The notes beneath the pieces are model-generated. The model was not told the origin of the DNA. It saw only the letters and a program-made list of their open reading frames with translations, and did no database searches. DNA of 64,000 nucleotides from Mytilus galloprovincialis. Taxonomy: Eukaryota > Mollusca > Bivalvia > Mytilida > Mytilidae. The stretch is taken from positions 94,073,743-94,137,742 of the forward strand of contig NC_134839.1 in the NCBI RefSeq assembly GCF_965363235.1, read 5' to 3'. This document shows positions 3,491 through 44,230 of this stretch, one piece after another (positions within the stretch are counted from its first letter, which is position 1; every line of letters starts with the position of its first letter). Both the position numbers and the translations under genes were made by a program.

Positions 3491-6400
3491 CATATCTTCC
3501 ACTGCCAGAAGCTAACAGACATAACTCAATATCCCATTTTTGGGCACAGTGAAAGTATTTATGTAACATATGGCTACATTCAGATCCCTGATAATTGGAC
3601 ACCTTGCAATTAAAAATGTCAAGAACAGAAAGCTGGAAGGAATGAATATACCAACCAACATTAAATTATATAATGATCAAAACAAATATTGTCTATGTTA
3701 ACTATCTGATAAGGGAACATTGTCAATTGTGATAACCAACACTGTAACACCGTGCCTTTCGGTTGACATTAAAGCAGATGTTAATACATGTATAGTACAT
3801 CTGATTAAAATCATTACATATATTTACATGTCTTTAGGCTTTGAAAAAGTGACGCAAGTATTGTCTATTCACATAATGTGCTTTTTTTTAATTTTGTTTT
3901 CGGGTATTGCACTCCAAAAATGATACCCCTGGTCTAGAATGTACAAAGTGGTGTATACATGCAGAAATTTTTATCATTTTGTTTTATAATATTTTACACA
4001 AAAGTTCATTACATACAGTATTTGTAATAGTGAGTTTGTAAAATCCCTGAAACATTGAGAGATTTTGTAAAACCACTAGCAGTTTAAGTAATTTTTTAAA
4101 CTCCTGAAGTTTTATAGGAATTTTATAAAATCACTGAATGATACGGATTTCACTTCACGTCTAATATTGCAATGCTTTTCATATTTTTTTTGTTAGAAAT
4201 GTCTCTCTTTGCGGTTCAATTGTAAAAAGACCACACCCTACTATTTATTAAAGTTTCTAAATCTCCTTTAAAAAGTTTGGCCTCATTCACAAAGATTTCG
4301 TGTAATATCCAAAGTGTTGAAAAAAGACTAGCTCTTTATTTACTATTTACCTTAACTTACATAATTAAACTAATTTAAAATGTGTACAAAACAAACATAT
4401 CTCATATTTTCCAGTAATTCTGAAATGTCCCAAAACTTGCCAAAAATCAGGTATTTCATAATTTCCGTATCTTAAAACATTTCACATTCCAGCTAATAAA
4501 GCGGAAAAAAACTCGTATTTCATTTTACAATTCTATCGTTTAGTTTAGCTTCTAATACATAATGATGTTTTTTCCTGTATAATCCATACAAAATATGTCA
4601 TTTTGTCACAAACTGTATCTTGGGAAAATGCGCTGTGACCTATCATTTTTATTATAAATTCTAAGTGTTAAGCATATAATATATGTTTTTTCTTTTAATT
4701 AAGTGTTTCAGAAATTAATATAAATATATGTACATCTTTTTACCAACGACGAAAAGTCTCTTGTAGAGATCTTAGAATTGATATTGATATATTTTTTATA
4801 TGTATACATTGAATTAGTTATGTAACTTCCACCTCTTTATTTCTTGCTATTCAACCAAGCCTTAGGTGAGAGGTTAGTAAAGCGATCTCGTGGATTTTAT
4901 GACATTTTGTAAGGAACAGTATAAAAAAAAATGCGTTACAAAGTTTGAATAACCAGTGGCGGATCCAGAAATTTTCATAAGTGGGGGCCCACTGACTGAC
5001 CTAAGAGGGGGCCCGCTCCATTCACGCTTCAGTGATTTCCTATATAAGCAACCAAATTTTTCCCAAAAAGGGGGCCCCCCCCCTCTAAATCCGCCTCTGA
5101 TAACAATATGTAAGTATCTGTAACACTTTTGGTGATAAAGCATTACATAAATTGTAGAATAATTTAACTTCAAATTACCATTATAGAAAACCCGTGCTAC
5201 CAGTTTAATTTAAATATAATGTTTCAAAGATATTTATATCTCTTGAAAAAGTGTTTGTCGTATATTATTTAAAATCACCCATTTGACCACAGCCTACTTC
5301 GTTATCACAAAATTCAAAAGTAGAATATACTGCATTAAATTGATTTACGATGTCAAAGTTTAACAGTTATATAGTTCGGATGAAGTAAGAAGCATGATGT
5401 ACTGCGTTTTGGTTTCCAGTTGTGAAACGAAGATTCTGCCACGAGACTATCTGACAACAATGAATTTCTGGATAAACCTCAAACATCCTTTCATTATCTG
5501 TACAACCCTAACGAATCAGTAACGTCATTTTTAAGATTTCATAATAGGAAAACTCTCAGCTGATTGATGAAAGATTTTTCCCGCGTAAAACGGGATCTTA
5601 TTTACTATGTCTATATGAATAATTTTACAAAGTAAAACAAAATATAAATGTCAACAATATATGATTATTCAATATATATCCAAGTACCATAGAAATCATT
5701 TGAATTGTTTGCATCCCACGTCTTCACAAATTATACCACAGAATAAAGATAGGTATAATAATTAAAAGAAAACGTTGTAAAAGATTTTCACATTTAAAAT
5801 ATATAGTAAAACTATTCTTAGCGATAGTAATATTGGTAACACACTTTTATTTATATAAATTGGTCTAAATGAGATTTCCTATCTTTGCGATAATTTATTT
5901 TGATATTTATCACCAAACATTTTATACAATTTTAGTTTAAAATCATTGATCATATTTGTCATTCTTATTTAAAAGAAACTGTAAGAATGTATGGCATGTG
6001 TATATACACAAGAACTTTCAATTATCATGCAGTAACTGTGATTATCTTTTATTATGGGTTTTTCTTTTGTTTTTGGTTTACTTTTGGTGAGGGGGCGTAA
6101 AAATTTTCAATAATTTTGTACTTTTCCCACTGATTTTTAATGTGTTTTAATGTCTATGTATTATTTTGTATCCTATGTTGGATAGGCGAGTATTCATGGA
6201 GGAAGTTTGACACCGCCATATATTAAAGTGCCTCTCTAGCAAAAAAGTAACCAACAAAAACTCATCAGCATCAGCTGTTTCTTTTTTTCTCTAAATATTC
6301 GCGCATGTATTGATTTCAACAATGTGTGGCTTTACATCGATCTACGGCTTGCCTCGATCTGAAACGACGAAGAACTACCCTTTTTATAATTGTCAATATA

Positions 6401-7770: not shown

Positions 7771-8009
7771 TGCATCTTATAATCGGCATGAATATATCAG
7801 ATGACAATTCCAATACTATAATAAGGCTTACGCATAGTTATATACTCTAATTCAGTCACGGACCCGTGATATCACGGGTGTGTTCTAGTCTTATTGAGCG
7901 GGAATCATGTTCTGCGGGAATCGAACAACAGATAATACATAACCTTCCCCATAACGGTTTGGACCCAAAAGTATGGAACGCCATAGCTGTCTTGTGGGTC
8001 TTTTTTTAT

Positions 8010-8471
8010 TGCTTTTCTATTATACGAAGGTACTTTTCTATTATACGATGGTGGTTTTCTATTATAATAAGGTGCTTTTGTATTATACGATGGTGGTTTT
8101 CTATTATAATAAGGTGGTTTTCTATTATACGATGGTGTTTTTCTATTATAATAAGGTGCTTTTCTATTATAATAAGGTGCTTTTCTATTATACTAAGGTA
8201 CTTTTCTATTATGATAAGGTGCTTTTCTATTATACAAAGGTGCTTTTCTATTACACGATGGTGCTTTTCTATTGTATGAAGGTGCTTATCTATTATACGA
8301 TGGTGGTTTTTTTATTATACGATGGTGGATTTCTATTCTACGATGGTGGTTTTCTATTATACGAAGGTGCTTTTCTATTATACGATGGTGTTTTTTTTTT
8401 ATTATACGATGGTGGATTTCTATTCTACGATGGTGGTTTTCTATTATAATAAGGTGGTTTTCTATTATGTT
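8010..8471 (+). repeat. 21-bp minisatellite array, left arm
   Basis: About 22 head-to-tail copies of a 21-bp unit, typically GGTGGTTTTCTATTATACGA with variants at the GTG-C/G and ATAC-GA/TAA positions. Because 21 is a multiple of three, long open frames appear in several phases; their translations (FYYTKVL-type repeats) are artefacts of the repeat. The array is the inverted partner of 11236-11755. Confidence 0.9.
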
Positions 8472-11080: not shown

Positions 11081-11235
11081 GATTTTTTTCTCTCTCAAAG
11101 TCTGGAAATGCTTGCTGAAAGTTTAATTTTTGTAAAACGTTTAACATTTTAGTGTTCACAGCCATGACCGCCATGTTGGTTCTGTGGGATTCAAATACAC
11201 GCCACGCTTCTGATTAATCACGGGAACCACATCCA

Positions 11236-11755
11236 CATAATAAAAAAGCACATAATATAATAAAATAGCACCATCGTATAATAGAAAAGCATCTTCGTAT
11301 AATAGAAAACCACCATCGTATGATAAAAAAGCACCTTCGTATAATAGAAATCCACCATCTTATAATAGAAAACCACCTTCGTATAATAGAAAAGCACCAT
11401 CGTATAAAAGAAAAGCACCATCGTATAATAGAAAAGCACCTTATAGTAATAGAAAAGCACCTTATTATAATAGAAAAGCACCATCGTATAATAGAAAAGT
11501 ACCTTCGTATAATAGAAAAGCACCTTATTATAATAGAAAACCTCCATTGTATGATAGAAAACCACCATCGTATAATAGAAAAGCACCTTATTATAATAGA
11601 AAAGCACCTTCGTATAATAGAAAAGCACCATCGTATAAAAGAAAAGCACCTTCGTATAATAGAAAAGTACCATATTATAATAGAAAACCACCATCGTATA
11701 ATAGAAAAGCACCTTCGTATAATACAAAAGCACCTTATTATAATAGAAAACCACA
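11236..11755 (-). repeat. 21-bp minisatellite array, right arm
   Basis: About 24 copies of the 21-bp unit in the opposite orientation to 8010-8471, read on plus as AAAAGCACCTTCGTATAATAG with CACCATCG and CACCTTAT variants. The open frames through it on both strands are repeat artefacts. Confidence 0.9.
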
Positions 11756-11804
11756 CATAAATAAATAAAAGACACATAAGACAGTTATGGCGTTCCATAC
11801 AAAA

Positions 11805-11886
11805 GCACAGGCACTTGTCTCAGAATTTTTTTTGTCTATATACCTTAATATATAGGATTTACTTTTTCTGAGACAAGTGCCTGTGC
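11805..11886. other. Perfect 21-bp stem hairpin next to the composite element
   Basis: gcacaggcacttgtctcaga(a) at 11805-11825 is exactly inverted at 11866-11886, with a 40-base AT-rich loop. It starts six bases beyond the outer edge of the 7971-11799 element. It may be a small foldback element of its own or an insertion hotspot. Confidence 0.8.
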
Positions 11887-29388: not shown

Positions 29389-32300
29389 TTATTCTGCTTT
29401 TTCACCTACAAACCAAAAGACATTTTTAATGAAAACTATTTACAGCTTCTTTACATTTATAAACTAGTAATTGGGAAAAGCCTTCATTCTAAAAAAAATA
29501 TTTCGCCATGCAAGGGTTTTATATCCTAGCTGTAGTTCATATGATTTAGTATTTCAATGAAATGTAAATCAATAGCGAACTTCGTGGGATAAAATAGTAG
29601 TTTAAAATATAATATACAGTGTAGTTTTCACAAAAAAAACAAATATACTCATCGCATGAACTACTATAGCTAGATTATGATGAATAAGTTCTGAAATTAT
29701 CATTTTCACTTCTTCACAGTAAGGAATATGGTTTATTGTGTTCTTAAGACAGATCACTGTACAGGGTTTTGGATTATCAGTACTAATACTTAATGGCGGT
29801 ATAATCGTGTGACCGATGATCAATTCATTCAAAAGTTAATTGTTTTGTACTTAGATATAATCTTAAGAGTAAAAATAAATTAGCACCTGTATATTCCTTT
29901 ATGGATTAGAAAAGGTTTTTGTCGCAATATCATCTTTTAAGCACTAATTACATAGCAGATATTCTGTACTTCTAACGGTGAAAATCTGTTTGATTAATTG
30001 TGTGTACCTATTCAAACAAAACCATTTTCTACATTTGAAAATTTCTGTACCAAGTCAGGAATATGACAGTTGTTTGATGTGTTTTATCCTTTGATTTTGC
30101 CATTTGATTAGGGACTTTCCGTTTTGAATTTTCTTTGGAGTTCAGTATTTTCGTGATTTTTCTTTTCACTACATATATTTTAGAAACGTAGTATTTTAAG
30201 GTATTTCCGACTGTTCTAGAAATAAGTTGATTACTTGATTTATGATACATAAAAATACAATGGAAAAGGGATACATACCCGATTTGCCAGTTTCGTCGGA
30301 CTTGTTTGTCAGCTCTGTAAAATATTTTACATATGTCAATTAATTAAAATCTTACTATATAAGTTTCCGTACAAATACAATTCATGCATCACTTGAAAGT
30401 AAGAAGTATTAAATATCAGTAGTCTTTGGGTTCAATATTTTGTTGACAAGAGAAAAAAGTTTGAATATAACGATGTTCTAAAAAACAATATTTTGAAAAC
30501 AAATACAAAATAGTAGTCCTATTCATGTAAAATATGTAACCATTTTTGTCTATCTCCTTAAGTTTTTCTCTTCCGTCATTTGTTATAAAGAAAAAAAGAC
30601 AATGGCTTCTTCCTTCGTATTTTTTTCGAAGTTTTTCTTATAATAATTTACAAACAACAAACCTGTACCATAGGATGACTTCATTTTCATAAGTCGTTTT
30701 AAAAACATAATCTGTCGAATACTAACGTCACAGTACCCAAATTGCACTGTTTAGCAAAAATAGCAGTACAAGATTTCCTTGAGACTAAACAATTTGTATT
30801 TTTATGATTTGATACTATGCACGTCTTTCAACATAGGTAAAATTAGACATTTACAAAACGTTCACAGTATTTATCAACAGATGAAGTGTTTACTGAAAAA
30901 GCAAAATGTACGAAAACTTCGCCATGCGACATCATCAAAACGTCCTCTTTTTAAAATTAGCAAATACAATATGTTACAAGTATCCATTTCTTAAAAAATG
31001 AAGAGTAAGCATGGAAAATATATGTAATTGTTCAAAATATATTTAAAAATTAAACAAAATCTTTGTTATTCGACTTTTGACGATTCGAATTTAAGCATGG
31101 ATGCATTTTGGGTACTCCTCATTACAGAATCATTGATGGTTAGCAGGTCAGTTCAGACCAATTTTTCTATGATGCCATATGGATTGAAATTCAAATTGGT
31201 GTTCCTTTATAGTAAAGAAGGATACAGCTACAAAATAAAGACAAAATGACAATTTTTGTCTGGATCACAAAAAAACGTAGTTGAAAAAACTGACAAAATA
31301 GGTGCAATTTGTGTACCGTCACTTATAGTATAGTTATTTTTAAGATTTAATACATCATAACAATACTTACTATTTTCAAGTTCAGCTATGTATGCATTCT
31401 TCTCTGCCAGTTCTCTCTTCAGTCTTTCTATTATACCATTTTTGTCTTTACAATGCAAACATTCCTGAGATGGCAATGCAATATTTAACTGTACCTTATC
31501 ACTAATACTGCCACTAGCTTCATCTACAGCTCCAGCAGCTGTGGCAGCACTACCGTCATTGTCTACAAAAAAATCTAAAGTAACTCAAGTTTTATATTTT
31601 ATTGTTATACTTAAATACGAACAAATTGTTTTAAAGTGAACAAACAGAAGTAAAACAAGTTTTTGTAATATATTGATCGACCGCTATCTATAATTTAACT
31701 GGTTGATATACGTAGGATTTTAAAAGATATGTTATTGCTTTCCTTTATATCAATTCAAAGATTCATAGTGCCACAAACCGCTCGTAGATTCAATTGCATA
31801 TAAAAATTCAATCTTTCTATGAATTCGAGTACAATTATTTATTTAAAACATAAAATATAAAAAGAGACTGTCAAAAAAAAAAACGTTCATTAAAAAAAAA
31901 TTTTTCAAGGTTGAAATGTGCAAGTTGAAAAGTTCTTCGTAAAATGAAAAATTTGAAAGTGAACAAGTATCAAATGAATTTACTTTGCAGAAGAAAAATT
32001 AACTTATCATACTCCCTTGTGTTAAACAAATATACAGTATGTCATACCAATTCTTGTTATGTCAACAAACTTTACCTGTAAATGGAGTTCCAGATATGTT
32101 TATCTCCACAGGTACTGTAACCGGAACACTAGTATCTATTTCACACACTTCAACTAACTTCTTTAAGAATGATTTGATAGCATTTTGAAATGTTTCTCTG
32201 TCTTTCATTACATCAGGATTTGCAGTGGTTTTGATCACCAATGATCCTATTCTTGCTGACAGTATTTGGAAGTAATTGTCATCTTCATTCCATGTTGGGA

Positions 32301-35066
32301 TTACCTTTTTCAGGCTAGCAACCATTCTACAATTATCCCATGATGATGGAGTTTCAAGCTTGAAGTGAAAATGTTTCCTTCCTGTGAAAAGATCAAAATT
32401 ACATAATTATGTGTAAATGATAGCATTCACTTTTTAATAAGGAAAGGAAGGGAGATACGCTAAACGTAATAAATACAATTGTTTTATTGCAATATATTTT
32501 ATGTGAAGATGGTCTAAATAAAAAATATATTAATACTTTAATAATCCGTTAATATACGCAGATTTATTCAAAGATGTCTGCTTCTGAATTTGAATGATAC
32601 CTAAAATATTAACGAAAGTATGACTCCATGTTCAAATACATACCTTCAACTGCAACTGAACACCTCAATGCCGTATGGTCTACGTCAAAACGTATATGAT
32701 TCAATTTTTCAGTGAAAAATTCTGAAATTACAAAATGTCCTGTTCTTTTCTAAAGATGTATAAATGAGATTGGCGCATTGCTTATTTCTATAATACACGA
32801 ACTGGTCTGTTACCAGCATCATGCCACTAGTCTTTTTGTTTGCAGAACATGACTAAAGGAAGCCATGAAGTGAAAAAAAATTAATCAGATTAACCAAATC
32901 TGTGTGATGTTGGTGTTATGTATTAAGAAAAGTGTCAACGGAGTTAATGTGATGCAAAAAAGATATTTGTGTTGCTATCTTTAGAGGACGATATTAGTTT
33001 GTGTTCAAATAAAGGCAACATTAGTGTATCACTGTTCAATAGCCAAAAATCAAATAAGTCAAGTATTGAGAATAAATCGCCGAAAAATCTTATCAAGGTC
33101 AATCGTAGTAATGGACGTCTGGTTTTACATGTATTTACAATTTTGATTGTTATTTTAGATAAGTTACAGTAAATAACATTGAACATTCGTAAACTGCAGA
33201 AGTAAACGTATCTCTTACTTGATAACATACATGCATACGCGTTAAAACTGAAAAAGAAATGCAACCATACAACCAATTTAAAGTTACCGACGACAAGTTT
33301 TCAATTTCGGATTCTTTGAGAATAAATCTTCTAAGTCTTTTGTATTGATAACCTTAAAATAATTTCGTCATTCGTTCAACAAAGCAATTATCTATTTCGA
33401 TTTCAAAAGGCTTTTATTTTTTGAAATTGGTTTCTATAGTATATTGTTTAATGTTTTCCATTCGTTTGGTCTGATTGAGCTTTGATTTTGTCATTTGTTA
33501 TGGGACTTCCCAATTTGAGTTTTCACTGGAGTTCGGTATTTTTGTCATTTTGTTTTTTACACTCTTAAGATCTGCTATCAAGAAAATATGTTTACCAAAG
33601 TATATATTTTTTTTAATGTTTTCAATCCCTACGTGTTAATGGCCTTTTTAACTTTTTTGGATTCGAGCGTCACTGATGAGTTTTTTGTAGACGAAACGCG
33701 CGTCTGTCGCAAATACAAAATTTAAATCCTGGTATCTATGATGAGTTTATGAATTACGTCTCTGCGAATTTTCTTTGTCCTCTAATCTATCCAGTTCTAG
33801 TTCGATATGCTGGTCCCTGTTATGCCGACTTTCTGACTGTCTCAACATCGTTTCATCTCTCAAGGCATTGGTGATGCCGTTCATTCTTGTAGTCAACACT
33901 TGACCAATTTTCTAAAAAGAAAAAGAAACACAAGCGTTTTATCATAATGTAAATCCCATTAAGGCATTGGTGATGCCGTTCATTCTTGTAACCAACACTT
34001 GACCAGTTTTCTAAAAGAGCACGAAACACAATCGTTTTATTATAATGTTAATCCCATTATCTTTAGGTGAAACAAAAAAAAAATGTGATAGTTTTTACCA
34101 TAATTCGAACTGTGGTACATTGTTACAGTCATGTGTTTCCATTTGCGTTAATATTATAACGAATAAATATGACTACTTTTCTGTCGAACTGATTATAATT
34201 AATGGTACTGCACAGACAAATATTTAGAAGTTCATAAAATATATTAAAAGTAATAATATATTATTTTCTTTAACTTACATTACAGGCAAGACAACGTAAA
34301 TAAAATATGTTTAAATTGTTTAAAACAACATGTTAACATTGAGACAATGAAAGAGATAAGCAAAATACATATACGATACCTTATCTTTAGAAAGTTTTTC
34401 TAACAGTTCATTCATATCTACTTTTGCAACGTCTGCTATTTTTATTAGTTTGATCTGGTACTCTACAATTCGTCCATAAGATGGAATAAAATGTTCCTGA
34501 ACTATTCCAATAACTGCCTTTTCTAGATTGTTCCACACCATTGTGAAATCCTCATCTGAATAGCGTCTGGTTATAGCTGCACGGAAAACGTCCCATCTCT
34601 GCTGTCGAATACTTCTCATCCGTTCAAGGTCCTGTTTGTGAAGTTTGACACAAGTGAAGATGATACTACAAAGAAGACTTACATCTACGTCTTCCAAACG
34701 TAGGCCTAACCTTGGAGTTATACGACACAAACAGTGTTGGGTGACAGACCCATGAATACCTTTTTTGAAATGACCTAAATTTGTTGATCCGCTCTTGTCA
34801 AACATCTTATTGAAAATTGCTTCATCTATCTCAGCCATTTTCTTGGTTAGAGCCGTTCCCATAGTGACTGATGAACATTGACAACAATGAGTATTTGGTA
34901 TCCATGAATGAAACAAATCATGTTTGTGTGCATCTAAAAAGTGGGTAAAATTGTTCTCATAGTTACATAAAATTTTTGATTCCGTAAAAGCTCTGATGAC
35001 GTCTGCTGATAAGTCAACCGAAAACATCAGAAGTCTCACAAAATTTGTCTCTTCTCTGCTAGACAT
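29389..35066 (-). CDS. Uncharacterised bivalve protein, possibly HEPN/DZIP3-like, 489 residues in 7 coding exons
   Basis: Minus-strand coding exons are 34380-35066, 33758-33911, 32644-32721, 32076-32381, 31371-31562, 30279-30314 and 29389-29405. Each has GT/AG borders and phases that join without a break. I start at ATG 35064-35066 (MSSREETNFVRLLMF) because a T-rich tract and AG lie seven bases upstream, marking an intron in the leader; an in-frame ATG further out would lie in that intron. Residues 1-229 are helical, with CCQCSS near 77 and VTQHCLCRITPRLGLRLED near 130, a layout I associate with a large mollusc-expanded family resembling DZIP3/HEPN helical domains. The HEPN RxxxxH-type motif is not evident. 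The middle (FQILSARIGSLVIKTT) is unassigned. The C-terminal part has CLHCKDKNGIIERLKREL and AYIAELEN, a coiled coil. Function unknown. Confidence 0.7.
30033..30175 (+). repeat. Dispersed repeat copy in an intron
   Basis: Same family as 16690-16850: ctgtaccaagtcaggaatat, gccatttgattagggacttt, gttcagtattttcgtgattt. It lies in the last intron of the 489-residue gene, on the opposite strand. Confidence 0.75.
33455..33560 (+). repeat. Dispersed repeat fragment
   Basis: ttccattcgtttggtctgat ... gggacttcccaatttgagtt ... gttcggtatttttgtcattt: diverged 3' half of the 16690-16850 family. Confidence 0.6.
33661..33745 (+). ncRNA. Hammerhead-like ribozyme core, copy a
   Basis: CTGATGA at 33673-33679, a hairpin closing on GTAGAC, GAAA at 33693-33696, then CGCGCG. 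This is the order of a hammerhead catalytic core with short stem III, followed by the retrozyme tail (aaatcctggtatctatgatg). Stem III is weakened (CGC against TCG) and stem I pairing next to the core is poor, so this copy may be inactive. It lies just past a splice donor of the minus-strand gene, on the opposite strand. Confidence 0.5.
33862..34058. repeat. 99-bp tandem duplication covering half an exon
   Basis: aaggcattggtgatgccgtt begins at 33862 and again at 33961, and both copies run through the acceptor region to taatg-aatcccatt. The downstream copy in gene order supplies the real start of exon 33758-33911. The upstream copy (33961-34058) keeps its own AG and reads a near-identical peptide (KTGQVLVTRMNGITNAL) but lacks the rest of the exon. 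Confidence 0.9.
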
Positions 35067-35269
35067 TTTGACTGAAAAAAAAAATATAAGTGTTTTTAAA
35101 GGAAATACCTGATACATTGCAAAATAGATTATATGTGTTTCATGGTAGGAAGATGATTATGATCCTATAAGTCCTATAAGATTGATGATTTTGTGATTCA
35201 TTGTGGTGTTTTTTTTGGTTTTTTTTATAAATTACTGATCATTACTCAGTAACTGTTTGCAAAAGTATG

Positions 35270-35800
35270 AATTATTCGAAATACTTAGGATTTTCTTCAC
35301 CCAGGCATAGATTACCTTAGCCGTATTTGACATAACGTTTTTGAATTTTGGATACTAAATGATCTTTAACTTTATATATAAAATTGAGAATGGAAATGGG
35401 GAATGTGCCAAAGAGACAACAACCCGACCATAGAAAAAAACAACAGCAGAATGTCACCAACAGGTCTTCAATGTAGCGAGAAATTCCCGCACCCGGAGGC
35501 GTCCTTCAACTGGCCCCTAAACAAATATATACTAGTTCAGTGATAATGAACGCCATACTAATTTCCAAATTGTACACAAGAAACTAAAATTAAAATAATA
35601 CAAGACTAACAAAGGCCAGAGGCTCCTGACTTGGGACAGGCGCAAAAATGCGGCGGGGTTAAACATGTTTGTGAGATCTCTACTTGTTTGTCTTTCTAAC
35701 TACATTTATCTGAGCGTCACTAATGAGTCTTATGTAGACGAAACGCGCGTATGGCGTAACAAAGTATACGTCTGGTAACCTTGATAACTATATGTGTTTC
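35270..35800 (+). mobile_element. Retrozyme-like unit split by another repeat, with diverged hammerhead core b
   Basis: 35280-35385 (aggattttcttcacccagg, gattaccttagccgtatttg) matches the body of the 37903-38320 unit. 35390-35690 is a separate dispersed repeat (ggaatgtgccaaagagacaa, tccttcaactggcccctaaa, aggctcctgacttgggacag). The unit then resumes with the ribozyme-like segment 35711-35760, where CTAATGA replaces CTGATGA, a change expected to abolish cleavage. A further body fragment (accagtgggtcggaaccgct) lies at 36144-36240. Confidence 0.65.
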
Positions 35801-36239
35801 ATTGTGGGAAGATAATTAGGGAACTCGGTCTATAAAGTCAAGATTGAAAACGTTTTATTATTCATTTTGATTGATGTATATTAACATGCATGATATAGAT
35901 AATAATATTTGTAGAAATACATTAGTTGTGTGAATCAAATTGATTATTGCATAATTCATTTTATTCTACTAGAATTTCCATATTCAGTTGTTATTGTTTT
36001 GGGGAGATTTTTTAAAACCTAATATATGCTCTAAAAACGTTTTACATGGGTTTGAAAACTTCAAGTCAGATGCAGGCCATGCATGATGAAGGTTGTACGA
36101 GAACTTATATTGTTGACATATATTATATCATTTGTTTCTAGTTACCAGTGGGTCGGAACCGCTGCTAGGGGGCTATAAGTCACTGATGATATCATTTGTA
36201 AAGTAGCAAATACTTCGATGTTGGTTGAAAAGCTAACAT

Positions 36240-37020
36240 CACATTAAGGTACATCGGGTGTTAAACTTTTGGTTTTCAGAGTGAACAGTGAAAACTATTT
36301 CAGAAGCATGTGTTGTCCGCAAGGAAATCATAATAAATGACATTGTCAAATCAGTATACATTTATCTTGAATAACATGCATCGATGTTGCGATCTGATTG
36401 AAAAAGTAACTCATTGTCAGGAGACTTCCATTGAATATGAGAAGTTATCAGTTACATATTGAATAAAAAACAACACAACGAACAGTGATTAATAATTCAT
36501 TTTAATGTTAAAAACTACGCTAAACGAAACCAAACTGTCAACATGTAAGTTAATCTATAAAAATATAAACAGTCTATATAAAACAGGCCGAGTCATGAAA
36601 TCGAAAGTAAAATATACCAAAATGACTTGTACTGCAAAAAACCTGACAAAATACAAAGAATGAAACAAGTCACTGATGTCCAAATAACTCTTAAATGTAT
36701 CTAATCAAAACTTACAAAATACTGCCAATAAAATGCGATCAACAACATATAAGGAAGGAGTTTCCCTATGACAAAAATAGATCAGGTTAAGCTGATTACC
36801 ACAGCCTCTGAATAAAACAGATAAACACGGACACATTTAAATATTTGTTATTTGTGTATATCTATCAAAAGTAATCTCGAATTTTCAATACTGATCAACT
36901 TTGTGATATGTTGTAGTCACAATTGCATGTCAAAGCCCTTCATTTTGAAAATGAACAGCAGATTATCATTGGGGATTGCACAAAAGTCCAGTCAATCTAG
37001 CATAAATTTGACCCTAACCT
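36240..37020. other. Gene-free stretch
   Basis: AT-rich; no exon, RNA gene or repeat with recognisable ends. Confidence 0.5.
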
Positions 37021-37021
37021 T

Positions 37022-37890
37022 GAAGTAATTGCAACAGAAGGTTTTTAAGTTTTAATCTTTAGCATTATACCCCAAATATACACAGAAAAAAGTCTAACAA
37101 AATCTAACTTGAGAAAAACTAAAAAATCATGATTTTAAAATTCCTACGGAGATATGCATTGAAATGGAAGCTTACTCTGCAAAAAAGGCCGAAATATCAA
37201 GTAAATTGATACAAAATCATAACTATACCACTTCTGTTCAACAGAATGTATTGACTCAAGTTATTTTTGCCGTCTTTAGAGTAAAACAAACAAATCTAAA
37301 GGTGTTTTCGTATCTTTTATTAAGTAGAACCTAGATTTTATAATTCATCAGTTGACCATTTAATAGAATTTTCAACATGTCAAGGTAAAGAATTTCAAAT
37401 TTGAAGAAAATAATTAAGCATAGATTTTTCTTTTTGTGGTTTAAAGTTTCTTTAAACAAAGAAGATGTCGAAAAAATATAATTTACAGATATAAACAATA
37501 CCAAATATTCACATTATTTTTCAAAATCGGGTCACAAAGCTATAAATTTGCAATTTCTTTTTAATGAAAAATGTGCAAAGAAAAACCCCAAACCCCATAA
37601 CACTTCGATTTTGTACATTTCATGAACAGAAGATTATATAATATAGTCAAGTACGAACTTATAACCCCATCAAAGTATCATACTTTACATGAATTTTAAG
37701 AAGATCAACCAAAAACTGACAAAAAAGACTTATTTTGGCAGAGATATCTCCCTTTCAAATGTTATTTTCCATAGGAAATTAAAAATGCTGGTTTTGAGTT
37801 TTCCTCAAGTTAGATTTTATGGGACTTTTTTCTGGGTATATATGGGGCTAAATGCTATAGATTAGAATTAATACATTTTCAGTTGCAACT
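37022..37890. mobile_element. Non-autonomous element with ~140-bp diverged inverted ends
   Basis: The left end (attgcaacagaaggttttta, then taatctttagcattataccc, agaaaaaagtctaacaaaat, ctaacttgag) is inverted at the right end (ctcaagttagattttatggg, acttttttctgggtatatat, gctatagattagaattaata, agttgcaact). The interior has no coding capacity. It abuts and appears to truncate the hammerhead region of the next element. Confidence 0.75.
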
Positions 37891-37902
37891 AGTTTGAGGT
37901 TC

Positions 37903-38320
37903 GAACGCGTCTGGCGTATTAAATTATTATCCTGGTACCTTTGATAACTATTTACACCACTGGGTCGATGCCACTGCTGGTGGACGTTTCGTCCCAGAGG
38001 GTATCACCAGCCCAGTAGTCGTCAGCACTTCGATGTTCATATGAATATCAATTCAATCATATCGTCATTTCAATAAATTTCCTGTTGACAAAACTTTAAA
38101 TTTTTCGAAAAACTAAGGATTTTCGTATCCCAGGAATAGATTACCTTAGCCATATTTGGCACAACTTTTTGGAATTTCGGGTCCTGAATGCTCTTCAACT
38201 TTGTACTTGTTTGGTTTTATAACTTTTTTTATTTGAGCGTCACTGGTGAGTCTTGTGTAGACGAAACGCGCGTCTGGCGTCTTAAATTATAATCCTGGTA
38301 CCTTTGATAACTATAAGTTT
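37903..38320 (+). mobile_element. Retrozyme-like unit with direct-repeat ends, period 363 bp
   Basis: cgcgtctggcgt at 37906 recurs at 38269. Both are followed by ttaaattat-atcctggtac and ctttgataacta, so one full ~363-bp unit is bounded by two copies of the ribozyme tail. The body holds gggtcgatgccactgctggt, gtatcaccagcccagtagtc and gattaccttagccatatttg. This dimer-like layout is what is known for retrozymes (non-autonomous retroelements amplified via circular RNA). Further copies are at 35270, 38876, 39757 and 25700. Confidence 0.7.
38239..38281 (+). ncRNA. Hammerhead-like core, copy c
   Basis: CTGGTGA at 38243-38249 (consensus CTGATGA), stem II GTCT/AGAC, GAAA at 38263-38266, stem III ACGC/GCGT with a 7-base loop, then C. 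One core adenine is replaced, so cleavage is expected to be lost. Confidence 0.55.
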
Positions 38321-38875
38321 GACTGGACTACAAGGATACTGTAATAATACAATATAAACGCAAGGTAGACTTAGTGAAATAAATCATTTCTTTCTTAATT
38401 GACCAAAAAAGTTTGATCATCAGTTTAATGTCGAACCAATCAATGTAAAATGATATCTACAGGTTCAAAAGTTTTTAAAGACCAGGGTTTATTTTATTGC
38501 GAATTTAGTATCTTCTACTTTTTAAGTTCTAACGGAATTCCAGTAACATGCGGAAACTCCACGGAAAGAATTATAAAAAAACGGACTCTTTGATCGGCAA
38601 CGTTTATTTGAGTTTGGTGAGTGACATTCTAACAGACGGTTGCTATCCCAACTGGTACAAGGTATACACTGTGTTGTTCTGCATGTTACATTGTCTCAAT
38701 TTGGCCTTGTGTCTGGTTTTGACAAAGACATATATATTCATGACGTTGCATTGAGTGATACAAATGATGCATGAATAGTAGGGTATACATATTCCATCGA
38801 CTTTAATAATTTCATTCTGTCTTGAGTTAATGCTATTCAAATTGTGTCAACTCTCATGTTGTCTGAAATTATGTG

Positions 38876-39265
38876 ATCATCTGTATACTATAATGGTATT
38901 ACTGCCATAAGGTCGGTACCTCTACTGGTTATTTGTTAGTCCCCGAGGACATCAACAACAGAGTATCCCGATGACATCAGCAGCACTGTAGCTTCGGTAC
39001 CGACTTTGGTATACGGATATTGTTTGATTGAAATTTGCTGTTTCACAATCTTGAAAATCTTTTTAAATTCAGGATTATACTTCACTCATGCAAAGCTCTG
39101 ATTCCGGAATTTAGCTATTCTTTAAATCTTTTTGTTTTTGTTTTATCAGTTGTTCAATATTTGTATAAGTTTTGGTTTTTAAAATTCTTTGTCCCAAATC
39201 TTCACTGAAGAGACTTGATTTTCGAAATGCGCTTCAGTTGTAGTAAAATTTGTAGCGTTAAAACA
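38876..39265 (+). mobile_element. Diverged retrozyme-like unit of a second subfamily
   Basis: The body begins aaggtcggtacctctactgg and ttagtccccgaggacatcaa, and ends in ttcactgaagagacttgatt and ttcgaaatgcgcttcagttg. At 39205 the string CTGAAGA is followed by GAAA (39233-39236) and TGCGC. CTGANGA is compatible with a hammerhead core, but stem II is only two to three pairs. Confidence 0.5.
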
Positions 39266-39544
39266 TTTTATAATCTCTTTAATATCTTTCTTTCAAACAG
39301 GCCGCAGTTCATGCTTCAGTGTACAAGCACATATTATAAATCCTTTGGGTTTTTTTTAATTTTAAGGATAGAGTGTTTCTAGTGAAGTTTAATCAAAACC
39401 AAGTGCATCGAACGCAACATATTTATACAGAATTAGTTTAATGTCCTTGAATTTTTTCTCGGGGATGCCTGTTAACTTACACGCGATTATCACAACAAAA
39501 ATTCTTTTACCCGTAACTTTTTACACAGCTGCTGAAATGAAGAA

Positions 39545-39600
39545 TTAAGGCAACAGTAGTTCCCCGATGTTAAAATCTGGTAAATCGATAAAACAGAGAC
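39545..39600. repeat. Fragment of the ggcaacagtagt dispersed repeat
   Basis: aaggcaacagtagttccccg followed by taaatcgataaaacagag matches the head of the 24896-25345 repeat. A similar piece is at 40779-40825. Confidence 0.6.
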
Positions 39601-39756
39601 AATTAAATATATCAAATAAAACCTGCGGAAATCGCATATAACCGGTGCATCGACAGGATTCGCGTCTACTGATATGCATGCATCACGCAGGAGCAAATTA
39701 TAATTTGTTCAAAATGATAACTTGTACACGACACATATTTATGAAATTGATTATAT

Positions 39757-40128
39757 ATGAGAATAAACTCATCATAGATACTAGTACCAGGATTGAAATT
39801 TTATATTTACGCCTGACGCGCGTTTCGTCTATAAAAGACTCATCAGTGACGCTTGAATCAAAAAATGTTTAAAATGTAAAATTACGTACGAATTTGAAGA
39901 GCATTGAGGACCAAACATTCCTTACAGTTTTGCCAAATACAGCTAAGTCAATCTTTTCCTAAGGTAGAAGAGCTTTAGTGTTTTAAAAATTCAATGTTTG
40001 TTAACAGTTAATTTATAATTATTATGAACATATCAATGATAACTCAAGTCAACACAGAAATGCTGACTACTGGACTGATGATACCCTCGGGGAATTAAAC
40101 TCCACCAGCAGTGGCATCGACCCAGAGG
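39757..40128 (-). mobile_element. Retrozyme-like unit on the minus strand, best-preserved hammerhead
   Basis: Read on the minus strand, the unit runs from tctgggtcgatgccactgct (near 40122) through ttccccgagggtatcatcag and gacttagctgtatttggcaa to the ribozyme-like segment 39808-39846. It ends in aatcctggtac and tatgatgagtttattctc. It is the same family as 37903-38320 in opposite orientation and is monomeric here. Confidence 0.7.
39808..39846 (-). ncRNA. Hammerhead-like ribozyme core, copy d (all core bases present)
   Basis: On the minus strand: CTGATGA, stem II GTCT-loop-AGAC, GAAA, stem III ACGC/GCGT with loop GCGTCAG, then A as the expected cleavage base. All invariant core positions are present. 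An outer stem I may form between gatt before the core and aatc after it, but the pairs next to the core are not good. Activity is therefore uncertain. Confidence 0.6.
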
Positions 40129-40139
40129 TTGTAAAAGCA

Positions 40140-40750
40140 TTGATACACACTAAAGAGTTTGTATTCAATGACCACACACTAAACTTTATTTACAAAATAA
40201 AAAATACCATGCTGCAGACAGGAAATGTAAAAACACAGAATAATAAAAATAAGCCTTGTGACAAATCTGATAGCATAATAAAAATTGGTCCCAGTAAAAA
40301 TTCTGGTAGTATAATAGAAATTGGCCCCAGTGGCAATTCTGATAGTATAATCACATAATTTGGCGCGAGTGACAATCAGGATGACACTGACGTTGAAAAA
40401 CCAATCATACGTGCAAGGAGACGTGCGCTGTCTGACCAACAGATCAAAGCCGAATATCAAACCAAGAAAACGAAACAGAAATTATCAGAACTTGCTGTAG
40501 GGGACAATTTCATCATACCAATTCCTCAGTATGACCCTGCCTACAAATGATTCTCGAAATATCTCAGGTATAGTTATTGAATCTGAAGAATCTGCACACC
40601 GCATCGGAACAGCTGTAGGAATTTTAATATGATACCGGTATTTTTCAAGTAATCAAAATGAAGCGGTTAAAGAAACATTTTTGTTCCCAGTAATTGATCA
40701 TCAGCTTCAACTTTCGCTACGTGAAGCAGTTATAAAGCCTTAAAAACTGC
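40140..40750 (+). pseudogene. Fossil of a transposon-derived protein, C-terminal part, broken
   Basis: Plus-strand frames contain ALSDQQIKAEYQTKKTKQKL, VGDNFIIPIPQYD and ESEESAHRIGTAVGI. These resemble the region after the integrase core in KRBA2/SCAND3-like transposon proteins (recalled, not searched). A short internal repeat (IGPSKNSGSII, IGPSGNSDSII) precedes it. The copy is broken in more than one place. The element class is not assigned. Confidence 0.4.
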
Positions 40751-40859
40751 TACACGAGCATAACGTATAAATTGATATATAAAGTCAACAGTAGTATACC
40801 GCGGTTCGAAATTAGTAAATCGATGTGAACACAATACAATGGGGCAAAAGGTGTGTATG

Positions 40860-41460
40860 TTACTGTTTAGAAATGGGAATTGATAATGAAGGAAGTTGAC
40901 ATATCATCCCGTTTGTCATAGATTTTAGGGTGAAGTCGTTCATCAGTGTCAATATTAGGGAAAAGATCAAGATTTTAATAACTACGATTGTCATTGTTAT
41001 AAAAAAAACCCTCTGTTTAATAAGATGGTGTGGTCGATCTTTCAATCGAGCATGGGGAATAGCAGGGTAGAGCGTAGACATATCAAAACTCGTCTTAATG
41101 TTGCTGCAAAATTGCAGTGATTCTGATCCATATGAATTAACAGCACATCTCAAGCTAGATTGTTTAAGGATCCACATCTGATTGACACCACTGCATGGTT
41201 GAATGTATCTCATCATAATATTTTAAGGCCATCTTTAACTGTAGAGAGAATACTATTCAGCACTTAAAAGAAAGATGTTTAGTCGAACATTTTGATCATC
41301 CAGGTTTGCCTCGTTCTTTTTAAGGAGTTTTGTGAATTTTTGGTATCCAGTATAATGACGGTAGATGTTCTTCGTTTTCACCAGTTTTGCTGTATATTTC
41401 GAGCTCTTTTGTGGACATTCTAAGTATTGGTTTATATATAGACAATAGAAAATAGACAAT
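40860..41460 (-). pseudogene. Fossil reverse-transcriptase fragment, broken
   Basis: The minus strand carries TGYQKFTKLLKKNEANLDDQ (41253-41459) and then SGVNQMWILK, CSNIKTSFDMSTLY and IPHARLKDR (40860-41216). These are marks of a multi-copy metazoan reverse transcriptase family. The C-terminal tail of the same family is at 55225-55540. The copy is broken and lacks most of the protein. I cannot say from this piece whether the family is Penelope-like or LINE. Confidence 0.55.
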
Positions 41461-41799
41461 ATGTATTAGCACAGACACATTTACATTAAATAGTTATGGC
41501 ATACAGTATTGAGACAATAAACTGACAATAGTTAAATTGACTATAATTATATTAGAAGGCAATAGTCCTACTGTATTATTGGAGGCTTTATCTGCTGGCA
41601 AAACGACAAATTTGTCATGAAAAGAGATTAAAGCATCCACAAACTCCGAGTTCTTGAATTTTTAAGAAACCTTTGTGCTCATACTACATATTAGCTTCTA
41701 AATGCATGATCAAATAGCTTTGAGAGGTGTCCCGAACAACGTAGAAATTTTGAAGTACATAAAATGTCTAGCTACATGCCAACAAATACAGCATACTAT

Positions 41800-43310
41800 G
41801 GATGAATATAATGAATGCATCGACATCATATTTCACACCAAGAACACTGAAATATGATCTTTCACACAATATCATCGCAGTATGTGGATATCTAAATTGG
41901 TCTTTAATACCAACAAAACACAACCAGCATGACATTAGTCTCAAACGATTTACTTCTGATAATGGATCAAAGCCAACACAAGATATCCAATCTGAACCTA
42001 CATATTTTCATACAGACGGAAAAGCTAACTCTCAGTCAAATTGACTATATTCTGTCAAATAACGACACGTTACTATCAACCAAGATATACAGTCAAGATG
42101 CAGTTAGCACACGAACCCATGCACCAGTAAAAGCAAGTACAAAATTGTATCTAGAAAAAAAGAAGAGCATAGAAACAAAGAAAAATACAGTAGCTTATAA
42201 ATTAGTATGGGAAGAAATGGATGACTTTTAAGACATATACATACATACATGATGAGATTGGTAAACATCTTCAGTTCCTTCCATCCCATGAAACTAATGC
42301 TGGCGATAAGTGAAAGTGTATCATGGAGATTCTGCACAATGCTACCGAACTAGCAGTACCTTCAAGAATTTATTATCAAACTAGTAAATGAACCCAAAAG
42401 GAAAGCTTCCCCTGTCGTTAAAAGACTGATTGGAATTATAAAAAAAACATAGACTCTGGAATGATGCAAGAAGACCTCACATTGACCAATATCTAAGGAA
42501 AAAACGGAAGCCAAAAGAAATTTCAGAAAACAACAGAAATAGAAACTGCATGTACATTCTTGAACCAGAGACAAAATACAAGTGGAAAATGAAAGTAAAG
42601 AAGTCTGTTGATGGATTTTGGTCCGAAAAAATGTTTGCTGAAGCCAAATTAAAACCGTCATTACGGTACTTGAATATATACAATAAGTAAAATAAGTGCT
42701 GTTAATTCTATATGGAAGAGTGCAGGTTCGGAACACATGTCTATACGTAAAGCATGTTATAAGACCAAAATGCTTTGGGATACATACATTCTACAGTACC
42801 ACCGTTCAAAATTTTCAAATGGTAAAAAAAACTTCAATGTGTCCACTGTGTGAAGATGGAACTGAAAACTTATAACACTTTCTTGTCGTGTGCTCTACCT
42901 TAACAAGAATTAGAGTAGACCGATTTTTTTTGGTTTCCTGTGTCCATATTTCACCCTTCCCATATTTGATTTTCCTCATTTTTACCTTTAATGTTTAAAA
43001 ATAAAAATTGAAAAAATTGAAAAATCCAAATGATAAATAGGAAATATGAAATGTCAACACGAAGAGACAGATTATTCGGTCTAGTATTAGAGACATTTGT
43101 ATCTTAAAACTTTATACAGTCGTTGTACCAAAGATTGGAACTGCTGCATGGTCTGGCATATGCGTTATCAACTCGAAAATGATAAAATTAGTCTTGGACT
43201 GTAGTCTTTTTGAATAGCACTCTGTGTTACAGAAAAATGACATTACTTTGGTGGAATCGATTACAAGAAGTCTGTGTTACTATCTCCAAAAAAACGAAGT
43301 GCTCTCCTTG
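41800..43310 (+). pseudogene. LINE relic: endonuclease end, linker and C-terminal zinc knuckle, reverse transcriptase missing
   Basis: Plus-strand frames give SQIDYILSNNDTLLSTKIYS and THAPVKAST, the C-terminal part of an AP-type endonuclease domain. Then come KPKRKASPVVKRLI and HRLWNDARRPHIDQYL, the linker before reverse transcriptase, ending near 42690. Directly after, near 42838, CPLCEDGTENL, HFL and C form the zinc-knuckle C-terminus, followed by VESITRSLCYYL near 43250. The reverse transcriptase between them is absent, so there is an internal deletion besides several frame breaks. The frames at 41802-42231 are part of this relic. Confidence 0.65.
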
Positions 43311-44230
43311 AAAGTAAATAAAACATTTATAAGTTGTAATGTAAGGTTTACTAATATTATAGGTTGTAAATAGATAAAACTGTTTAAAAAATGAATAGTG
43401 ACAGGAAACTTAAGGGTAGATTCATGGTATACCGCCATCTTGGATTGTACTATCACAGAACACAATTGCCCAAATCTGCAAATTTGTAGACAGATGTGCA
43501 GTTTTATTGGTAAGACTGTTTATTCATATGAGGAAAACTTGCTGATTTATTACATTTTCAAAATATTTAAACAAATACCAAACATTTGTGTTTTAGAATC
43601 ATTATTTTTAACTGAGCCATTTAAGGGGAGATAACTCTATAAGTAAAAAATTATACTGGTCTGGTAGGGAAATTTTTTATTTTTACTTGTAGCAAGAAAA
43701 CAAGTTCGGTGACACTATTTTTTTCTTTTTGTTTTCTTAAAATATATTATAAAATATATCTTCTCACAATTTATTTCAAAATTCTATGTCATTGATTTCT
43801 TTTATGCACACAAATTAGTTTTTGCATGATCATTCTAAGCAAATTTAGACAATTTCCAACGACTCATAGCTTGAAAAATATAGCACGATGGCCAATCCTT
43901 TTAATTATATTTTTGAAAAGAGCATTTAGCAAAGTATAAAAAAAATCAATCTCGGAAAACAAAATTTTACTGGATGAACTAGGTTCTCCTGATACAGGAG
44001 GGACTTACAGAAGGTATGAGGTAACATCCAATGGTCGATTCATTCCCCTACACTTTTGGTATCTGACATTTGAAAATAAAAATATCTGATATAGGCTATA
44101 GCAGTCTCCTCAACTTCAATGCTCGAAGAAAGATGCAACGAATATTCAAAAGTATTCTGACCTCAAGGGCTCTGAATCAAGTAAAGAAAAATCACTGTCC
44201 ACATTGTAGGTTTATTTATCACAAATCACC

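Follow-up and report, generated by a model that had tools for sequence, protein, structure and literature searches.

The 64,000 nucleotides of Mytilus galloprovincialis DNA analysed here (the window, C2:94073743-94137742 of a genome of 1.385 Gb in 331 contigs) contain a group of short repeats which, judged by their sequence, are retrozymes of the kind without long terminal repeats (non-LTR retrozymes). Newly observed are a mostly fixed 3' end of the insertions past the cut site of the hammerhead ribozyme, evenly spread 5' ends, copies of more than one unit, target duplications that are short or absent and a hairpin module 3' of the end point. These ends suggest that new copies are begun at a single fixed point beyond the cut site, which is what a closed circular RNA would predict.

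In the mechanism proposed here, a type I hammerhead would cut the transcripts of the non-autonomous, non-coding retrozymes of ~350-365 nt, and the monomers would be closed into circles, as published for mussels. A reverse transcriptase would then start at one internal site that lies 33-47 nt beyond the cut; its primer would be a nicked, AT-rich target with an end able to pair with the U-run at the start site. The enzyme would copy round the RNA for a random distance and fall off; the resulting insertions, of 0.1 to over 4 units, would share one 3' end, differ at random in their 5' ends and have target duplications that are short or absent. As a whole explanation, comprising the fixed internal start, the circular template and the enzyme of a Penelope-like element (PLE), this seems to us rather probable.

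Families and the fixed 3' end

Three families (A, B and C), distinct in tail and in ribozyme, were found, with unit lengths of 349 (C), 356 and 363 (B) and 364 nt (A), which fit the metazoan range of non-LTR retrozymes (170-400 bp; mussel 350-390). The GC content of these four units is 34.9-39.1 %, and read round they hold no plus-strand frame of more than 62 codons (the longest have 45-62), so that the units themselves do not encode the reverse transcriptase or the GIY-YIG domain of a PLE. No terminal repeats beyond the unit tandems were seen in the window and the sampled loci; a primer binding site and a polypurine tract were not searched for.

Ends were determined against a natural B unit of 356 nt with the cut site after position 317. 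The 98 sampled loci had been chosen by tail (30, L069-L098), by a mid-unit anchor (30), by Rfam score (30) or by core pattern (8), and together with positions 30001-44000 of the window they gave 130 copies, 123 of them clear of the locus edge. The BLAST 3' ends of these 123 lie at 355-356 in 67 copies, at 351 in 11, at other positions within 342-353 in 14 and elsewhere in 31; with a chaining limit of 60 nt (hereafter strict) 135 copies fall into the same classes as 67, 11, 14 and 43. Position 351 is where the family A tail diverges from the B reference, and the ends outside the main classes include C and A copies viewed via this reference as well as truncated and interrupted copies. Ends at 320-324 were rejected as a second end class, since they are mostly C and A copies aligned to the B reference. 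The commonest distance from cut to end is 46-47 nt in A (15 of the 17 measured), 38-39 nt plus TT in B and 33-34 nt in C. In A and B units the letters after the end are TTT.

Tails without a next unit number 17/22 in A, 64/112 in B and 5/8 in C, and their flanks differ; at least one of the 17 terminal A tails is miscalled (that at 865 in L031 is a decayed internal junction, and the one in L023 is B-like). In the genome the B unit-to-unit junction pattern is matched 4090 times on the plus and 4397 times on the minus strand, fewer than the B tails counted below, so most B tails are probably element ends, a rough comparison because the two patterns differ. In L026 (1022-1050) a 5'-truncated B copy begins where a family C array has its 3' end, which could reflect insertion at the old end or template switching.

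A plain satellite, or chance hammerhead-like motifs without any transposition, would agree with the ribozyme scores in the window, all of which lie below the Rfam cut-off. This reading is contradicted by about 85 terminal flanks that differ from one another behind a shared tail, by an insertion with a paralogous empty site and, for chance motifs, by zero control matches in the genome, and we regard it as extremely improbable.

5' ends, copy length and arrays

The 5' ends of 65 tail-ended copies are compatible with a uniform spread over the unit (Kolmogorov-Smirnov test, p=0.73; strict 0.71), as are those of 20 copies whose loci had been selected only by their tail (p=0.99; strict 0.79). One of the 65 (strict none) begins within ~6 nt of the cut site, where 2.4 are expected. 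Lengths run from 28 to about 1500 unit letters; 32 copies (strict 28) are longer than one unit, 13 (12) exceed two and 5 (5) exceed three, the looser chaining having joined four copies across long inserts. The 65 include one pair with an identical flank, and the 5' ends of old copies may be some letters off. No copy in the window has two full units. A cut linear RNA as template is disfavoured, because its copies would have their 3' ends at the cut site and could not exceed one unit; neither limit is observed.

Units of the same array are 94.8 % identical (27 pairs, 12 arrays) versus 88.8 % between loci (627 pairs). The array at C10:33586086-33589325, with ten exact ribozyme-pattern matches 356-357 nt apart and one shared loop, is homogeneous. 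Two arrays ~345 kb apart (C1:28984488-28989139 and C1:29329480-29334130) have a near-identical spacing pattern, and an inverted array near C1:29640000 resembles both, which points to a large duplication.

Insertion sites

The flanks are rich in AT: 74 % in the first 20 letters to the right and 71 % to the left, compared with 68.5 % in letters 21-40 to the right and 67 % in the loci overall. The right flank carries T at +1 in 58/66, at +2 in 49/66 and at +3 in 32/66 and A at +6 in 41/66, and the left flank has no strong letter preference. A circle would continue past the end with TTTACACC (beginning TTTACA); the flank agrees with it at the first letter in 59/66, at two or more in 43/66 and at three or more in 17/66. 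Target duplications of at least 5 letters occur in 18/64 copies versus 8.8 in shuffles (maximum 17), and of at least 6 in 5 versus 2.7. The element of locus L039 sits in a reverse transcriptase gene, and comparison with an empty paralogue of its target in L075 gives a 4-bp duplication, TTTA, which is also how the circle would go on. A general rule of long target duplications was rejected: a strong long match (29 nt) was found only at the interrupted copy of the window, 1/82.

Long and short interspersed elements (LINEs and SINEs) also have AT-rich flanks, 5' truncation and a fixed 3' end. The ends would thus be compatible with a SINE-like linear template, in which termination or trimming leaves transcripts ending in the U-run that follows GATAACTA, a LINE reverse transcriptase uses this 3' end as its starting point and tandems arise by unequal crossing-over or read-through; the TTT after the end of A and B units and the existence of long near-identical arrays fit as well. 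Against such a template, an RNA with this 3' end would extend beyond its own self-cleavage site and must escape cutting; it would lack the covarying hairpins described below, which are located 3' of the end; and target duplications are mostly below 5 bp. Since published mussel retrozyme RNA is, in addition, mainly circular (PMC7229834), we consider the linear template unlikely.

Hairpins 3' of the end point and the ribozyme

Just 3' of the end point lie two hairpins, GGACG-CGTCC and GTCAACAC-TTCG-GTGTTGAC, with paired changes among 45 copies (5 A, 3 C, 37 B). These were aligned from 85 head segments found, 70 of which passed the filter, and comprise all 3 C rows, A rows with a recognised tail (4/5), the window A copy and 37 B rows, two of them without a recognised tail. 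The module is 94.1 % paired and has 9 double-change pairs versus 3.8 (1/500) and 27 double-change cells versus 5.9 in shuffles (0/500), with at most 9 cells in slid controls. An alternative outer helix, preferred by RNAalifold, which left the second hairpin out, scores as well as the first; good support is therefore limited to the hairpins at 31-46 and 73-93 of alignment A1. A terminal copy has no module downstream of its end, whereas a circle or multimer carries it.

Tentatively, and with more doubt than attaches to the mechanism as a whole, it may be supposed that a PLE reverse transcriptase starts within the closed retrozyme RNA and binds the hairpin module located 3' of this start. If so, one-unit copies would lose the module, since only a circle or multimer carries it downstream of the start, and the circle made by the ribozyme would restore it; the copying enzyme would be named and the retention of the ribozyme explained.

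The ribozyme of family C differs from that of A and B by A-U for G-C in stem I, A-U for U-A twice in stem II and U-A for C-G in stem III, and keeps the core motif and the TC cut site. Among 127 ribozyme rows (A 19, B 102, C 6), 65 were drawn (all A and C, 40 random B) and 50 aligned (13 A, 6 C, 31 B); the other 15, mis-parsed or of odd length, were left out. In this alignment 94.7 % of the cells are paired, and the helices have 25 double-change cells versus 4.4 in shuffles (0/500), with at most 10 in slid controls. The core is intact in 31/55 family B copies. Our reading is that the ribozyme was kept while the families formed and that most genomic copies now seem to decay freely; transcripts in this genome would accordingly be expected to be cut by a type I hammerhead.

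An internal start might also be used on uncut linear multimers transcribed from tandem arrays, the ribozyme being irrelevant to copying. Its junction predictions equal those of the circle, and in vitro a lizard PLE with ribozyme mutants inserts equally (PMC11167929). Yet 33/65 copies (strict 37) have one unit or less and would be unable to give multimers alone, circles dominate the published mussel RNA, and in a separate family, though in one lineage, the ribozyme helices are preserved through paired changes. To us such multimers are an improbable template, and we infer a circle instead.

Candidate enzymes

By analogy with the PLEs discussed below, a PLE may supply the enzyme. One candidate fragment lies in the window, 5' of the minus-strand retrozyme:

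40863-41661, minus strand: decayed reverse transcriptase fragment with motifs FVVLPADKASNN, LPSLYWIPKIHKTP and SFDMSTLYPAIPH

From these motifs we tentatively take the fragment to be Penelope-like, and its relatives and those of the L039 gene are presumed PLE-like on the same grounds; a Pfam search of the reverse transcriptase fragments gave zero families above cut-off. Relatives of the window fragment (best 150 of 5597 candidates) reach 72 % identity, the fragment itself apart, and at least ten, some of them in tandem with a spacing of about 4.55 kb, have frames of 1007 codons; among the matches listed they lie on C1-C14 and once on C180. Fourteen large contigs agree with the karyotype of Mytilus. 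Three such genes stand in tandem at C13:7908570, 7913119 and 7917669 (spacing 4549-4550), two with 1007-codon frames. Many relatives of the L039 gene (best 150 of 8419) share 98 % identity and have frames of 480 codons, and some stand in tandem about 4 kb apart; this family (e.g. C1:44202291 and C1:44206322) looks recently active. GIY-YIG domains gave at least 147 matches (best 150 of 1001), with frames of up to 911 codons and often in inverted pairs; C8:24677994 and C11:32913355 are two examples in long frames. Neighbouring GIY-YIG frames on opposite strands (C13:29482393, minus, and C13:29488874, plus) have a layout described for PLEs. Reverse transcriptase fragments adjoining retrozymes were discarded as evidence of an association: the case of L039 is a nested insertion, the orientation in L075 is opposite and no background rate is available.

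Several observations weigh against a PLE-driven start on a ribozyme-made circle. Among the matches listed, no reverse transcriptase relative sits with a GIY-YIG match in one gene-like arrangement. The ribozyme-chosen loci show the common end except L011, L021, L023 and L033, which are 3-13 nt short, and L025 has a deletion in the tail, its last letters being kept. Duplications of 8 bp or more occur in 2/64 copies; those of rotifer PLE copies measure 8-10 bp or are absent. The junctions do not tell a circle from an uncut linear multimer, since either template carries the sequence across the cut site and can yield copies of more than one unit. The lizard PLE starts at a site without homology to its target and inserts equally when its ribozyme is mutated (PMC11167929); here, unlike there, the flank letters partly match the next letters of the circle. 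As to the ribozyme, 24 of the 25 double-change cells come from the six C rows and so reflect about four events on a single branch; of the five covariation measures, two are not significant (double-change pairs, 5 versus 3.1, 44/500; pair types, 199/500). Excess conservation of the core within family B was looked for and not found, 2140 of 10000 random site sets being as conserved.

The copies in the window

Between 33.6 and 40.2 kb the window contains five copies of one repeat superfamily and one remnant:

33645-33750, plus strand: family A copy, 5'-truncated, with hammerhead at 33667-33710, cut after 33704 and 3' end in ...GATGAGTTTAT
35131-35159 (left) and 35790-35818 (right), plus strand: direct repeat of 29 nt flanking the interrupted B copy, 26/29 identical
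35216-35376, plus strand: 5' part of a family B copy split by a nested repeat
35377-35680, no strand: 304 nt of unrelated sequence nested in the family B copy, a gap between repeat matches
35681-35790, plus strand: 3' part of the interrupted family B copy of 35216, with hammerhead at 35714-35757, ending in GATAACTA
36143-36231, plus strand: weak remnant of the retrozyme head region without ribozyme (62/90, score 65, shuffle maximum 40)
37906-38313, plus strand: family B insertion of 408 nt (1.15 units), with hammerhead at 38237-38280 and cut after 38274, ending in GATAACTA
38900-39271, plus strand: old family C copy, hammerhead core letters kept at 39196-39241, helices decayed, without Rfam match
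39772-40135, minus strand: family A copy, one full unit, with hammerhead at 39809-39852 and cut between 39815 and 39814

The original prediction, made from the sequence of the window, had placed five hammerhead cores in this region, and all five were found again (33667, 35714, 38237 and 39196, plus; 39852, minus) in four plus-strand retrozyme copies and one minus-strand copy with type I hammerhead cores. The cores at 33667 and 39852 are intact, with a single stem I mismatch in the former and an A.A mismatch in stem I of the latter. Two sites called mutated (35720 and 38243) are so: the hammerhead at 35714 has a core G to A change (CTAATGA) and A at the cut site and is expected to be inactive, and that at 38237 has a core A to G change (CTGGTGA). 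The site at 39205, called divergent, is real and belongs to the third family: its copy aligns over nearly all of the C unit (257/379 identical, score 264; 300 shuffles, mean 31, maximum 52).

A 363-bp unit bounded by two ribozyme tails, as expected of dimeric retrozymes, had also been proposed. The spacing of 363 nt is real, but there is a single ribozyme with a mutated core, and the left edge of the unit (from 37906) is formed by the last letters of a ribozyme rather than by a second one; a self-excising dimer was therefore rejected. The insertion begins ~5 nt before the cut site, a boundary that looks accidental, as a 5' end near the cut site occurs in only 1/65 (strict 0) tail-ended copies from other loci. 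Two working ribozymes occur together at no locus of the window. None of the loci could therefore set a monomer free on its own, and the window copies look like fossils.

The 29-nt repeat around the interrupted B copy (match score 20 versus a shuffled mean of 0.05) is possibly a long target-site duplication. Letters resembling the nested 304-nt sequence were seen by eye next to other retrozymes, in the flanks of L033 and L080. An inverted repeat (37016-37125 and 37792-37901, arms of 110 nt, 79 % complementary, 666 nt apart) may be a foldback element and ends 5 nt before the retrozyme at 37906. Just 3' of the first retrozyme copy are 56-nt direct copies (33862-33917 and 33961-34016, 99 apart). 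Between two retrozyme copies runs an open frame of 278 codons, stop to stop (34320-35156, minus), for which a Pfam search gave zero families above cut-off. Repetitive low-complexity frames (FSIIRW-like) lie at 7851-8449 and 11214-11819, the latter open on both strands.

Hammerhead detection and genomic abundance

A scan with a hammerhead covariance model, proposed as a check of the original prediction, matched four of the five sites, all below the cut-off. With cmscan of positions 30000-44000, Hammerhead_1 (RF00163, gathering threshold 34 bits) scored 29.9 bits at 33667-33710 (plus, E 0.00053), 27.7 at 39809-39852 (minus, E 0.0029), 25.3 at 38237-38280 (plus, E 0.019) and 18.9 at 35714-35757 (plus, E 2.3), and gave no match at 39205; the Rfam scan of the whole window had zero matches above cut-off. 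A genome search with RF00163 yielded at least 37 matches, at least 29 of them above cut-off (74 of 224653 candidates scored).

A 35-mer core pattern, whose spacing fits loops one letter longer than the commonest, is matched with up to three mismatches 248+279 times in the genome (527). The repeats shared among the window copies measure 46-124 nt, and their resemblance is beyond chance, as the common sequence is far longer than the ribozyme and the 527 core matches stand against 0 for the reversed pattern. An exact 34-mer core with the commoner loop length has 7456+7715, at least 15,171, matches (control 0). Tail patterns with up to two mismatches are matched 12646+13067 times for B, 6895+6895 for A and 2483+2640 for C (control 0 each), 44,626 for the three families together. 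This is on average one per 31 kb, by which five copies in 6.5 kb form a cluster.

Relation to known elements

Non-LTR retrozymes of M. galloprovincialis and their circular and cleaved RNA have been reported, with type I hammerheads in repeats of ~350-390 bp, low GC content, tandems and no protein, as seen here (Cervera and de la Pena 2020, PMC7229834). Thousands of ribozymes in more than one family are common to both accounts: about 5000 in two families as published, at least 15,171 core matches in three families here. A description of the element ends is absent from the available text of that paper; here the 3' end lies past the cut site, and the two were compared by description only. The LTR retrozymes of plants likewise have a hammerhead and circular RNA and are non-autonomous (PMC4918200; PMC7229834); unlike those of mussels they are described with type III hammerheads, LTRs, a primer binding site and 4-bp duplications (PMC7229834).

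A second likeness is to PLEs whose pseudo-LTRs contain hammerheads. For a lizard PLE (Frangieh et al. 2024), reverse transcription in vitro was reported to start internally, downstream of the hammerhead, within an AC-rich stem-loop and at AT-rich targets, and the starts match the 30-40-bp tail of the genomic copies; the minimum RNA extends to +172, and starts lie at +111 to +118 (PMC11167929). Among rotifer PLE copies, 5' truncation and partial tandems are described, the 31-bp tail is optional, and duplications measure 8-10 bp or are absent (PMC3846280). Retrozymes share with PLEs copies that end at a tail, tied in PLEs to internal starts (PMC11167929), 5' truncation, partial tandems and AT-rich targets (PMC11167929; PMC3846280). 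With 33-47 nt past the cut here and 30-40 nt in PLEs, the likeness is one of mechanism only; the exact geometry of the lizard element differs. PLEs, moreover, encode a reverse transcriptase and a GIY-YIG endonuclease and carry minimal hammerheads, whereas retrozymes encode nothing and have the full type I fold.

Reverse transcription of the circles by a LINE or PLE enzyme has been proposed (PMC7229834), and PLEs or LINEs as movers of retrozymes are a published idea (PMC7229834; PMC7761336; PMC11722881). A link from retrozyme ends to the internal starts of PLEs was not found in the literature searched, which covered few subscription papers; PMC11167929 is absent from the papers listed there for the word retrozyme, and the available text of PMC11722881 lacks the phrase internal initiation.

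Significance

The elements are of a known kind and the window copies are fossil; the ends of the copies genome-wide inform an open step of the life cycle. They bear on how animal retrozymes re-enter DNA, since they locate the beginning of reverse transcription at a single site. In a common animal this is a large system: circles were reported to make up to 1 (the unit is missing, probably percent) of total mussel RNA (PMC7229834). Penelope, with 86,269 copies, is described as the most abundant transposable element of M. galloprovincialis (PMC4792442). The insertion ends argue against a cut linear template and predict the RNA that a PLE protein should use.

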